This document shows, piece by piece, positions 1-4,707 of a stretch of DNA of 64,000 nucleotides. The notes beneath the pieces are model-generated. The model had not been told where the DNA came from. It searched no databases and saw nothing but the letters and a program-made list of their open reading frames with translations. The translations under genes and the position numbers were made by a program. Numbering within the stretch: position 1 is the stretch's first letter; every line of letters starts with the position of its first letter. Source of the DNA: Bradyrhizobium guangzhouense (GTDB lineage: Bacteria; Pseudomonadota; Alphaproteobacteria; Rhizobiales; Xanthobacteraceae); NCBI RefSeq assembly GCF_004114955.1, contig NZ_CP030053.1:6674001-6738000 (forward strand), written 5' to 3'.

Positions 1-223
1 GGACCCGCAGCAGACGCATCCCAAGACTCCCGCAAATCGTCATTTCTCTAAGCCTTTGAGAGCTAGGTCACTTCACCCATCACGTCGAAGCCCGCGTAGC
101 AGGTGCATTAGAGGTTAGCGACCGAGTTCGTCACGAATCGATGTTGACAACGGCCCTCTGAAAGGACAACATTAGCGTGTATTATGGGCATTGTACTATC
201 ACGAGAGATTAAGGGAGAGAAAC

Positions 224-397
224 ATGGCTACCGGTCCTCACGTACAATTAAAGCCGGAAGAGATTACCATCGACAAGGACGGGAAAGTGGTGATCAACAA
301 CCATTCGTTGTCTTCACAGCTGTCGTCTGAATTGCAGAAGATCAAGAACGGCGGCCCTGTCACAACCGGCTTTATCAAGATCGATATCATTTGTTGA
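224..397 (+). CDS. Putative RiPP precursor peptide (57 aa)
   Basis: A 57-residue ORF starts at an ATG with a strong AGGGAGAG ribosome site 6 nt upstream; an in-frame TTG at 191 is less likely. The N-terminal part is charged and polar (ITIDKDGKVVINN, then LSSQLSSELQKIK) like a recognition leader. A Gly-Gly follows, then a short C-terminal stretch PVTTGFIKIDIIC rich in beta-branched residues, with one aromatic and a terminal Cys. A radical SAM gene follows 118 bp downstream on the same strand, the usual layout of a RiPP precursor and its maturase. I know no named family for it. That Gly-Gly is a cleavage site and the last 13 residues the core is inference. It could instead be a small unrelated protein. 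Confidence 0.6.
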   Translation: MATGPHVQLKPEEITIDKDGKVVINNHSLSSQLSSELQKIKNGGPVTTGFIKIDIIC

Positions 398-515
398 TCG
401 TCACCGCGCGTAGACCGCATCGCGCCGGTTAGCCGCTTGCGGTCTGCGACACGCTCAATGCCTTACGACATGACAATAGACTTTTTTCTCGGTTTGCCAT
501 CTCGAGGTTCCGAGC

Positions 516-1514
516 ATGTTAGATGCTGGCTTTTATCAGACCGATGCTTTCCGCTTTGCGATCAATGATAGAATCCTAGAACTTATCTTGCTCCCTACAG
601 AAGCGTGTAATTTTCGCTGCACATATTGTTACGAAGATTTCTTGCACGGTCAAATGAAAGACGAAATTGTGACGGGGATCAAGGCCCTGATTTCACGTCG
701 GATAAATGATCTCGACTGTTTAAAAATCAGCTGGTTTGGCGGTGAGCCGCTCCTCGCTCGGTCCACCGTTTTAGAAATTTCGAAGCACGGCAATGATTTG
801 TGCGCGGCCAACGGCTTAGTGTTCATATCTGACATCACGACTAATGGAGCTCTACTCTCACGCAGTCTGGTCAACCAGTTGTGGTCTGTGGGGGTGAGAG
901 ATTTCCAAATATCACTAGATGGTCCGAAGTATAGACACGATGGCACTCGTCTACGCGCAAACGGGCGGGGATCCTTTGATCAAATCTGGGCCAATTTGCT
1001 AGGAATAAAGGAAAGCGGCTTAAGGTTGAACGTGACGTTGCGGGTTCATGTCACCACTGACAACCTTGGAGATATGCCTGATTTTTTTACAGAGCTTGAT
1101 CGCACATTCCTGAACGAGGACGACCGATTCTCTGTGATCCTAAAGCCGATCGAGCGCCTCGGCGGAAAAAATGATAATGCTATTGGTGTATTGTCGGCTG
1201 CGCAACGCAACGACCTAATCGCTACCTTCGGGCAATTGGTCCAGGCAAAAAGGTCATCCAGCGTCACCAAGAAGAACGAAGACCATTTAATCTGCTACGC
1301 TGCAAGACCAAATTCCCTCGTTATTAGATCTGACGGCCGAATCGCCAAATGCACAGTAGCGCTTAGAGATCGGCGCAATGTGATAGGAATGCTGTCAGAG
1401 GATGGTTTTTTGCAGGTTCAAAACGATAAACTGGCGCCTTGGGTTCGTGGCCTCGCCAGTCTTGATCCTTCGGAGCTAGAGTGTCCTTGGGCCAATTTTC
1501 CAATCACTGGATAA
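516..1514 (+). CDS. Radical SAM enzyme with shortened SPASM/twitch C-terminus
   Basis: A 332-residue radical SAM protein. The CxxxCxxC [4Fe-4S]/SAM motif is CNFRCTYC (Cys31, 35, 38), and a WFGGEP SAM-binding motif lies at 73-78, as in peptide-modifying SPASM enzymes. The C-terminal region has C260-x13-G274-x4-C279, the opening of a SPASM domain. After that only Cys323 remains before the protein stops at 332, so the usual CX2CX5CX3C block is absent. That suggests a twitch-like domain with one auxiliary cluster, or a truncated SPASM. It probably modifies the peptide encoded just upstream by a radical crosslink or similar. The start at 516 has GAGG nearby. Base composition is AT-richer than genes right of 5 kb. 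The exact chemistry cannot be told from sequence. Confidence 0.85.
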   Translation: MLDAGFYQTDAFRFAINDRILELILLPTEACNFRCTYCYEDFLHGQMKDEIVTGIKALISRRINDLDCLKISWFGGEPLLARSTVLEISKHGNDLCAANGLVFISDITTNGALLSRSLVNQLWSVGVRDFQISLDGPKYRHDGTRLRANGRGSFDQIWANLLGIKESGLRLNVTLRVHVTTDNLGDMPDFFTELDRTFLNEDDRFSVILKPIERLGGKNDNAIGVLSAAQRNDLIATFGQLVQAKRSSSVTKKNEDHLICYAARPNSLVIRSDGRIAKCTVALRDRRNVIGMLSEDGFLQVQNDKLAPWVRGLASLDPSELECPWANFPITG

Positions 1515-1529
1515 TTTTAGGATAAACGC

Positions 1530-2210
1530 TTGCCCCACATCGATGTCGACACAGATCAGCTGGATCAGTGTCGCTCACGGATTCTATCCGCGTGCGCATG
1601 CATCATGACGGGGTCTCGCGGGTGGCCAGCGGTCATTTCAGAGCTGGAGCCTTTTCCGCGAAAATGGCAGCTCTTTGTTCTAAGAAATGTTTCTAGCGAA
1701 TTGGCAACGGCAATGTTGCTTAGTAATACGGGCCTACAGATTGCACCGTACTTGGTTGAAAGCTTTCGGGCGTTTCCGCGTTCTGCTCTAACGGGAGCTA
1801 GAGGTTATGCCGCCAACTATGTCACTGCTGAACTATATCGAAGAGCCTGCGGCCAAGAACTTCTTAAGGCAGACATTGGCATCTTTCCTCTCCCTCCAAA
1901 AGGATTGGATGCTTTATCAGACTGGGCGAGCGACGCTGTGTCACTTGCTCTCCCGATGTTTGCAGACGTACACCAACAATTTCGACTAGACGCAACATCT
2001 TTGGCGCGCTGCGCGTGCCTTTCCGCCATGCGTGAGAATTTGCTAAACGCGGTCGCTTGCCTCCGCTGGTTACGACTGATGGTAGCTAAAGGCGAATTCC
2101 AAACCTTCGACAAACAGCTTACACAATATTTGACTCGGCCCGGACAGAGGGGAGACGTCCGCTTTCAACTCTCGATCCTGTATCATGCTAGTGCGCAGAC
2201 CAGCGATTGA
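1530..2210 (+). CDS. Hypothetical protein of the radical SAM cluster (226 aa)
   Basis: It begins at a TTG 16 nt after the radical SAM stop, with AGGAT about 8 nt upstream; the next in-frame ATG (about 1605) would remove some 25 residues. I do not recognise the family. The sequence looks mainly helical and soluble, with scattered Cys (two near the N-terminus in SACAC, two more around CAC at about 160) and no signal peptide or clear membrane segment. It overlaps the next gene by 26 bp, so translation is probably coupled. Sitting between a peptide maturase and two further unknown genes, it may be a cluster-specific partner or recognition protein; that is inference only. Confidence 0.6.
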   Translation: MPHIDVDTDQLDQCRSRILSACACIMTGSRGWPAVISELEPFPRKWQLFVLRNVSSELATAMLLSNTGLQIAPYLVESFRAFPRSALTGARGYAANYVTAELYRRACGQELLKADIGIFPLPPKGLDALSDWASDAVSLALPMFADVHQQFRLDATSLARCACLSAMRENLLNAVACLRWLRLMVAKGEFQTFDKQLTQYLTRPGQRGDVRFQLSILYHASAQTSD

Positions 2211-3126
2211 TACACCATCTCGTGTTGCCCTTGCGCAACGCGTGCTTGGATGGATCATAGCGCGAAAGGACTTATTCCGCTTAGCGATATCTGATGACGC
2301 TAGTCGCGTGCGGCTGGTGAAGCCGCTCGGCGAACTGACCATTCTCGCCGGCACTGCTAAGATGCTGTCCAAGCAAACGATAATTCCTAACGCTCTATCG
2401 GACCAGTTACTCCAATTTTGTTGGGACGAATTGAATGGGGGCGATCTGCTTGCCGAACTCATTCGGCGTTATCCATCCTGTCTCATTTTCGTGTCTGTCT
2501 ATGCCGTGTTATTTTCTAACGGCTTCTTTTGCGAGCGATTGCATGCAGCAATATTAGAGAAGACGAGCGTTAGAGGATATTGTGAAATCGAGCTTCCAGC
2601 TTGGCAGCAATTAGATGTAGGAGTTGCCCTCGACGAACTTGGTATTACATCTCCTTGGAACGTTACTGAGCTTTACGAACGTACTTGGCTCGGGCAGAGA
2701 CTCGAACCTTGGTCTGCATGGCCAGGGGCAGCGTATTCTGTTACTCATACCGTGTTCAGCGTCACACGAATGGGGCGAGCCACCGACAAACTTCCAGAAG
2801 CGTCCCAAGAGTATCTTCGTTTATGGATGCCCGTGTGGCAGGTCTTCTACGCCCAGCTGCAACAATTTGACTTACTTTCTGAGCTCGTAGCGACAGCACA
2901 TTGCGCAGGCTTTCAATGCGACGACGTCGACTTTTTTGAGATTCTTAAATCGCATCAATGCAAGGATGGACATATCCCCTCTCCAGAAGGAGCAACTCGC
3001 TCGGTTTGTATTGGTGAGACGGCCCCCGAAAGAATCTATTTCTTAGAGCAGTATCACACATCAATAGTTGCGCTTCTTGCGATGCTATTTGAGCTAGAGC
3101 ACGGGGCAGAAAGACCGGACAAATGA
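2185..3126 (+). CDS. DUF6895-like protein of the radical SAM cluster (313 aa)
   Basis: A 313-residue protein starting inside the 3' end of the previous gene. A conserved-looking central segment reads WPGAAYSVTHTVFSVTRMG (about residues 178-196). From memory this matches the AY-x-THxxF-x-T hallmark of the DUF6895 family, known mainly from actinomycetes; that link is recollection and was not searched. The rest looks helical, with two Trp-rich patches (LEPWSAWPG, LRLWMPVWQVFYAQL). There is no signal peptide or catalytic motif I can name. The stop overlaps the next ATG by 4 bp (ATGA), so it is cotranslated. The function is unknown; a role in peptide maturation or substrate binding is suggested only by context. 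Confidence 0.6.
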   Translation: MLVRRPAIDTPSRVALAQRVLGWIIARKDLFRLAISDDASRVRLVKPLGELTILAGTAKMLSKQTIIPNALSDQLLQFCWDELNGGDLLAELIRRYPSCLIFVSVYAVLFSNGFFCERLHAAILEKTSVRGYCEIELPAWQQLDVGVALDELGITSPWNVTELYERTWLGQRLEPWSAWPGAAYSVTHTVFSVTRMGRATDKLPEASQEYLRLWMPVWQVFYAQLQQFDLLSELVATAHCAGFQCDDVDFFEILKSHQCKDGHIPSPEGATRSVCIGETAPERIYFLEQYHTSIVALLAMLFELEHGAERPDK

Positions 3127-4241
3127 TTTTCGCCGAGGGCGAGAAGAGGTTTCTCACGCCGTGCGATCGACCTACCTTTTTGCCGTTTATCGATGAGGCC
3201 CAAAAGCTATCCGAATTTTACGATTGTAAAGCTTCTCTATTTGATAGGAGCGACCGCAGTCTGGAAGAGATATTTTGGTTCCTTAATAGAGTTGCCCTTG
3301 TCTGCCATAGGGCAAGCGAGACACGATTAGCGCGAAGATTGTGTTGTCAAGAGCTCAAGCTGTCTTCGAGTTTATATTCCGCGACCACTCGGGACTGGCC
3401 TCTCAAATTAAGTCTACAGCCGTGGATAAATCTCGCACGCTTGGATTTCTCTGCCGGGCATCTGGACACCGCTGTTTTTCGACTGAGGAAGCTTCAGTGG
3501 TGGAGCGAAGGCATTTGCTCATTCAAGCTTGGCCGCATTGAGGTGCCAAGCGAGTGGATTGACCGAATGGAGCAGATCGAGCCGGGACTACGGGCTTTTC
3601 TTGAGAACGCAACTACCGTTGAGATGCTTTGGTTTCTCGCAAAGTCGAACCGCTGGGATAGAGTTGTCTCACTGGTTGAGCTGTTACCCGAAAAGCTATC
3701 AAAGCTATCGGTGGCGCAGGAGGCCTATGTATTGGGCTTAACGGAAACGGCCGGCATTCAGCGTGGCCTGAATAGAGCGATAAAAAAGGTCAACGAAGAA
3801 ACAGGCTGGGGTCGATTAGTCTTCGCTGTACGAACCGCTCAGCTGCTGCAGAAGAAAGCAGACCCTTCTACCGGCATCTACGTTCTCGGTTTAATTGAAG
3901 CTGTGTTCGAGACACTTCACGGCTCCTTATCAGCCGAACAGGTGAAAATATTGCTCCAAGTTGCGCGGCTCGCCTTGGAGACAAAACTCTCCAGCGAATT
4001 AATAGAGCGATTTAATGTGGAACTGCTCAATCTCTGCCTCAATACAAAGGACGTACTTGTCGTGGCCGAAGCACGGGAATTTTTCCTGCGCTGCACCGAT
4101 GTCGATAAATCAGCTGTGAACAAATTGTGCGAGGGATGGCGTGCGAACACTGAAGCAGTGGGATCTAACATCGTCCTTGAGCAGCTTCTCCATCGGGCTC
4201 GAGAATGCGTCAATCTTGTCAAACTACCATTGGACTCGTGA
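3123..4241 (+). CDS. Hypothetical helical-repeat protein of the radical SAM cluster (372 aa)
   Basis: The ATG overlaps the preceding stop (ATGA). The protein is about 370 residues and mostly amphipathic helix. A TPR-like segment (WINLARLDFSAGHLDTAVFRLRKL, about residues 101-124) looks like a helical repeat or scaffold rather than an enzyme. No catalytic motif, signal peptide or membrane segment is seen. It is the last gene of the same-strand run that starts at 224. Base use is AT-richer than in genes right of 5 kb, as for the rest of the run. A scaffolding or protein-protein role in the putative peptide-modification system is an inference. Confidence 0.6.
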   Translation: MIFAEGEKRFLTPCDRPTFLPFIDEAQKLSEFYDCKASLFDRSDRSLEEIFWFLNRVALVCHRASETRLARRLCCQELKLSSSLYSATTRDWPLKLSLQPWINLARLDFSAGHLDTAVFRLRKLQWWSEGICSFKLGRIEVPSEWIDRMEQIEPGLRAFLENATTVEMLWFLAKSNRWDRVVSLVELLPEKLSKLSVAQEAYVLGLTETAGIQRGLNRAIKKVNEETGWGRLVFAVRTAQLLQKKADPSTGIYVLGLIEAVFETLHGSLSAEQVKILLQVARLALETKLSSELIERFNVELLNLCLNTKDVLVVAEAREFFLRCTDVDKSAVNKLCEGWRANTEAVGSNIVLEQLLHRARECVNLVKLPLDS

Positions 4242-4622: not shown

Positions 4623-4630
4623 ATGTTTTT

Positions 4631-4707
<77 letters not shown>

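Follow-up and report, generated by a model that had tools for sequence, protein, structure and literature searches.

What would a cell make from a 57-residue peptide whose gene is followed, on the same strand, by a short radical S-adenosylmethionine (SAM) enzyme, a member of the DUF6895 family and two further genes? This question is raised by a five-gene operon located at positions 224-4241 of a 64,000-nucleotide stretch of the Bradyrhizobium guangzhouense genome (contig NZ_CP030053.1, positions 6,674,001 to 6,738,000), the whole of which is referred to here as the window. The operon is of the type that directs ribosomally synthesized and post-translationally modified peptides (RiPPs), and all five reading frames are open. 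An earlier reading of the letters, the original prediction, had proposed a RiPP-type system at this place, and the present analysis upholds it. The interpretation preferred here, for which belief and doubt weigh about the same, is that of a compact hybrid RiPP operon that would combine a single thioether, introduced by the radical SAM enzyme, with epimerization.

The precursor gene (224-397, plus strand) starts with the ATG at 224, its stop codon ends at 397, and it is preceded by the strong ribosome site already noticed in the original prediction, aagggagagaaac. The leader would comprise about residues 1-44, ending in GG, and would be followed by the core PVTTGFIKIDIIC. A precursor profile has been built from 15 open reading frames (ORFs) that adjoin related enzymes at 12 loci (L004, L005, L057, L074, L082 with four of them, L153, L154, L156, L158, L159, L221 and L222; fetched loci are numbered with L and genomes with G), leaving out the window peptide; a leader motif or visual inspection first brought up some of these precursors, which makes the conservation among them partly a result of selection. 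The window peptide reached 28.9 bits against this profile, whereas none of 1,338 decoys, made up of 338 further ORFs of the window and 1,000 shuffles, exceeded 6.5 bits. Hence a short ORF lies beside a maturase gene, its leader is conserved across homologous loci and its core is variable. The possibility that the peptide might not be conserved beside homologous enzymes is not borne out and, as judged from its sequence, the peptide is a genuine RiPP precursor that very probably belongs together with the radical SAM enzyme.

The core of the window peptide contains one cysteine, the C-terminal Cys57, and those of the other 15 precursors contain two to six. In an alignment made by eye with GLIININC (S. 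canus) and GLNILC (Sinorhizobium), the core GFIKIDIIC ends at their first cysteine; MAFFT displaces Cys57 relative to this by-eye alignment with the first core cysteine of the relatives. The core had been described as fitting no class, and it is unusual indeed, mainly through stopping at that first cysteine. Among the other precursors, the one at L074 (7592-7945) carries three copies of VGIFDNCDC or VGIFDNCNC, which suggests several products per peptide, and at L082 (7471-9839), in Luteibacter, one short radical SAM enzyme lies amid four different cysteine-rich precursor-like peptides.

The second gene (516-1514, plus strand) encodes a short radical SAM peptide maturase of 332 residues, identified by Pfam, NCBIfam, alignment, an AF2 model and Foldseek. 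Its score with the Radical_SAM Pfam model (57.5 bits, gathering threshold 29.5, E 2.4e-15) places it in the superfamily. The CxxxCxxC and GGEP motifs noted earlier in this gene have been located as C31-x3-C35-x2-C38, the SAM-cluster motif, and at residues 75-78, and the C-terminal region contains, as was also noted, C260-x13-G-x4-C279 plus C323, with CX2CX5CX3C absent. In PMC6231123, the SPASM motif is given as CX9-15GX4C-gap-CX2CX5CX3C-gap-C; the window enzyme scores 14.1 bits with Pfam SPASM (threshold 21.5) and does not have the seven cysteines of that domain. Its pattern would fit a Twitch domain, a truncated SPASM with one auxiliary cluster. The three C-terminal cysteines (260, 279 and 323) are kept in 16 of 16 rows of alignment A5, and all residues invariant in A5 are retained in the window enzyme. 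The best NCBIfam model was TIGR04463 (rSAM_vs_C_rich), whose cut-off is 525 bits; the enzyme scored 140 bits and falls outside that equivalog. The 11 best models are all peptide or protein maturases, and MoaA comes twelfth; membership in a non-peptide radical SAM family, the outcome that would have contradicted the original prediction, is therefore not found. Identities as MoaA, NirJ or viperin were discarded, because the 11 best maturase models all outscore them, and a role in defense was also rejected, since the PADLOC viperin models, the best of which reached 47 bits, covered residues 28-173 of the shared barrel.

Relatives of the enzyme exist in a short form of 307-372 residues and a long form that mostly has 440-509 residues (383 at L157). 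The alignment and the tree were each made of 32 rows, 13 of them short, including the window enzyme, with the group defined by length. In the short rows the counterparts of cysteines 260, 279 and 323 are retained, whereas the CX2CX5C segment and the final cysteine of SPASM are missing; extra cysteines near the C-terminal end were found among them, two in L004 and one in L158. On the tree the 13 short rows lie on one side of a branch with support 63/94, present in 62% of the bootstrap trees, the bootstrap being unsettled. The enzyme is thus trimmed, as predicted, and is not a lone trimmed case, because the 13 short rows have the same pattern and cluster on the tree: it is a member of a short-form group, rare and related to TIGR04463. 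Of 257 genomes in the genus, three contain the short form (the window's own, G010 and G027, whose rows are those that built the search profile), the next match, G144, being a long form. Two of 200 Streptomycetaceae genomes contain it, and the third match there is again a long form. Short enzymes with cysteine-rich cores were found in four phyla, one only through a metagenome-assembled genome, and a search of viral contigs gave nothing useful. Two plasmids carry related genes in other settings. On a Bradyrhizobium plasmid (L159, 7965-9733) a short-form gene annotated at only 561 bp adjoins an IS3-like transposase gene, and on a Deinococcus plasmid (L157, 3311-9255) a long-form radical SAM gene lies alongside an LLM-class oxidoreductase and lantibiotic dehydratase annotations.

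The comparison with characterized maturases outlines what this enzyme may do. The window enzyme matches TIGR04463 over residues 16-297 and shares with these maturases an adjacent peptide gene, the same SAM cluster and the three C-terminal cysteines; however, the match begins at model position 77, the N-terminal part being missing, the cysteines of the second auxiliary cluster (Aux II) are absent, and the window core has one cysteine. The ORF starts 30 residues before the first cluster cysteine and, judged from this start and from the length, without an RRE profile search, an N-terminal RRE domain is probably lacking; a separate RRE protein is possible. The AF2 model has a pLDDT of 83.8, and CteB (5why) is the top PDB match both by sequence and by fold (Foldseek), with 20-22% identity. 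The thioether synthases CteB and SkfB, of the sactipeptide/ranthipeptide type, resemble the window enzyme in having a radical SAM barrel plus an auxiliary-cluster domain. According to PMC6231123, SkfB has a one-cluster Twitch domain, CteB differs in its two auxiliary clusters, and both, unlike the window enzyme, carry an RRE leader-binding domain.

Gene D (2185-3126, plus strand; 313 residues), which encodes a putative peptide epimerase, matches PF21836 with 192.5 bits (gathering threshold 23.8, E 1.3e-56). It is therefore a member of DUF6895, a family to which the original prediction had likened one of the three partner genes. In alignment A3, with 8 sequences, T187, H188, D229, E233 and H291 are among the invariant positions. 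A DUF6895 protein is reportedly a lasso-peptide epimerase, going by the title of a reference (Shi et al., ACS Catal. 2026) that is cited in the single paper found to name DUF6895. Epimerization by D is accordingly putative and argued by analogy, the link being that one title. The lasso-peptide enzyme belongs to the same Pfam family as D but, unlike what its setting would require, neither a lasso cyclase (asparagine-synthetase-like) nor the peptidase was found among the five proteins by Pfam and NCBIfam.

Genomes with a DUF6895 score above the cut-off numbered 14 among 265 in the genus, 4 among 289 in the class and 9 among 349 in the phylum (overlapping sets that include the own genome), 107 among 200 in the Streptomycetaceae and 7 among 112 in the phylum of Nannocystis. 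Peptide-sized ORFs adjoin DUF6895 genes at L137, L162, L164, L215, L216, L240 and L241, and none was recognized at L214 and L218. DUF6895 genes of the Bradyrhizobium type, at L138-L147, have about 440-590 codons (ORFs listed for L138 and L139). A shared GPWFVL core motif was observed in peptide ORFs next to DUF6895 genes of two genomes from the phylum to which the window belongs, once at L240 (5946-6203) and twice at L241 (7437-7868, as GPWYIY and GPWFVL).

Gene C (1530-2210, plus strand; 226 residues), with a TTG start at 1530 and agga upstream, lies directly 5' of the DUF6895 gene, in the same place as the partner gene of Streptomyces. In an hmmsearch with a profile of 47 partner sequences it obtained 19.6 bits over about 60 residues, and the best other sequence among about 3,260 obtained 8.3 bits; a decoy, d7, ties with C at 19.6 bits and is, we infer, C itself as carried by L028. 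Of the Streptomycetaceae loci, 16 of 20 picked by hand and 28 of the 30 with the best scores (1.5-kb flanks) have a C-type gene next to DUF6895, four loci being common to both sets. A short peptide ORF with a ribosome site precedes the C and DUF6895 genes in 18 of 19 C-bearing loci (16 from Streptomycetaceae and three from plasmids; the exception is L207), the peptides having been selected by visual inspection of the candidate ORFs. It is thus probable that C and D form a conserved gene pair and that C and the DUF6895 partner protein are distant homologues, and that both C and D act on the same peptide as the radical SAM enzyme is an assumption made with fair assurance. The three partners had been described as lacking a clear function; C and D gain the context of a gene pair at short-peptide loci, and E stays without a detected relative.

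The Streptomyces cassettes (for example L160, L202 and L208) have the order short peptide, C-type gene and DUF6895 gene in common with the window; they differ in the peptide, which has an LLLSPKPPK-like C-terminus, in the frequent presence of a second DUF6895 gene and in the lack of a radical SAM gene. The peptides of such loci (L201-L206, L208-L213, L217, L219, L220, L160, L161 and L163), of about 53-79 residues, are encoded 5' of C and one or two DUF6895 genes, contain in 16 of 18 cases a run rich in leucine with SPK or SPP after it, and look like a RiPP family.

The union of radical SAM and DUF6895 genes is rare. Among the first 164 loci, many with 1.5-kb flanks only, both occurred together only in the copies of the window. 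A later scan for radical SAM genes, which covered L160-L223, L224, L225, L232 and L240-L245, revealed a sole further co-occurrence at L214 (= L245; 6032-9947, minus strand), where a different radical SAM gene, of a Streptomyces family, lies between two DUF6895 genes. Its product has TIGR04463 as best model (104 bits) and a C-terminal region with still fewer cysteines than that of the window enzyme; on the tree it falls outside the window group, on a very long branch, so the combination may have arisen more than once. No description of a radical SAM and DUF6895 hybrid appears in the portions consulted of the literature searched (including PMC13352647, PMC6231123 and PMC10676384), and searches on TIGR04463 and on the heterodimeric linaridin epimerase gave nothing useful. 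PMC10676384 reports a RiPP cluster with a radical SAM epimerase plus azole and dehydration enzymes, so hybrid RiPP pathways as such are not new.

In favor of the proposed pathway, the NCBIfam models closest to the enzyme describe RiPP maturases, the first of them named after cysteine-rich partners. The short enzyme would itself bind the conserved leader, with no domain dedicated to this. It would use the SAM cluster and one auxiliary cluster, whose free coordination site would hold Cys57, and the sulfur of this residue would be joined to an upstream residue to give a single C-terminal thioether ring; that the enzyme works like a CteB-type synthase is our own inference. Proteins C and D would invert one or more core residues, after or before the thioether step, and E would act as a third helper. 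Taken one step further, the operon could define a RiPP subclass in which an RRE-less radical SAM enzyme with one auxiliary cluster makes a thioether from the single C-terminal cysteine and a C-D complex, together with E, introduces D-residues into the core that carries it; this is offered tentatively, with doubt prevailing.

Several results weigh against this interpretation. The full set of five genes was seen at no other locus, and no precursor was recognized at the short-form locus L058 or at L214. With its single core cysteine, the window peptide has lost the multi-cysteine logic of its relatives. Support for a single origin of the short group is only moderate. The homology of C rests on 19.6 bits, and the hhalign probability of a match between C and the partner family was 0.2% for 5 sequences and 10% for 47. 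A single-sequence fold of D (pLDDT 37.3) was unusable and has been set aside. Neither an exporter nor a protease was detected among the five proteins by Pfam and NCBIfam, as the original prediction had stated.

The alternative that survives best, though we regard it as unlikely, is that the radical SAM enzyme makes a C-C bond or another non-thioether change, for example at Ile, Lys or Asp of FIKIDII, and that DUF6895 and C cleave or bind the peptide without epimerization. The core is poor in cysteine, the NCBIfam scores are far under the equivalog cut-offs, so that the family gives no chemistry, and the chemistry of DUF6895 is known through one title. Nevertheless, Cys57 aligns by eye with the first core cysteine of several relatives, the three C-terminal cysteines are kept, and CteB is the closest structure. 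It seems improbable that the locus unites two unrelated modules, the peptide with its radical SAM enzyme, and C-D-E serving another peptide or cell metabolism. Peptide and radical SAM genes do occur without DUF6895 in the fetched DNA (L057, L151, L152, L153, L154, L156 and L158), and pairs of C and DUF6895 genes without radical SAM are common. The layout argues otherwise: 15 bp separate the radical SAM gene from C, C and D overlap by 26 bp and D and E by 4 bp, exactly as noted before, on a single strand and with a uniformly low GC content. Moreover, no other window ORF of 40-130 residues fits the precursor profile above the shuffles, and L214 again has a radical SAM gene between two DUF6895 genes. 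Decay of the locus, with loss of the cysteine-rich core tail and of the second cluster of the enzyme and no product left, is very hard to believe: the one cysteine, the short core and the lack of an exporter would agree with it, but the same short enzyme occurs beside cysteine-rich cores in the four phyla mentioned, the five frames are open and the A5-invariant residues are retained.

Gene E (3123-4241, plus strand; 372 residues) overlaps D by the 4 bp indicated above. No relative was detected in Pfam, NCBIfam, PADLOC, plasmids or 148 other related genomes, and comparisons gave no support for placing E with DUF6895, the C-type proteins or related helical proteins.

The five genes are likely an island integrated at a tRNA-Met gene and probably acquired horizontally by this 8.1-Mb genome, which is in two contigs. 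Its GC content is 50.5%, compared with 64.2% in the 10 kb to the left and 65.8% to the right. The borders are visible only in L002, the fetched DNA that includes the left flank beyond the window edge. An exact 14-bp repeat, TTTGGTTGCGGGGA, has its left copy at L002 13990-14003, whose final three bases are all that the window contains of it (positions 1-3), and its right copy at window positions 4629-4642, overlapping the 3' end of tRNA-Met (CAT; 4631-4707, minus strand; L002 18631-18707), the likely integration site. When the right flank was searched in 59 other members of the genus, the best match started at query positions 324-332 in 52 of them (the repeat being at 330) and earlier in seven; match starts at the repeat are equally expected from the end of a conserved tRNA gene. 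The island reading is kept at likely because the conserved tRNA end mimics the signal, no integrase was seen for the island and an empty site was not found, since the search for the left flank beside the tRNA was negative in all 9 relatives examined. Directly to the left of the border, outside the window (L002 11457-13923), lie a tyrosinase gene and then a copper-chaperone (PpoB2) gene.

The presence of DUF6895 in 107 of 200 Streptomycetaceae genomes, together with a peptide gene upstream in 18 of 19 loci, suggests that DUF6895 and partner C constitute a widespread peptide-modifying module. If the proposed pathway is true, the window enzyme would be a minimal radical SAM maturase without a leader-binding domain or a second auxiliary cluster, with which the requirements of thioether synthases could be probed, and it would be paired with a protein family only recently linked to peptide epimerization. 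Radical cross-linking and non-radical epimerization would then be united in one 4-kb mobile cassette.

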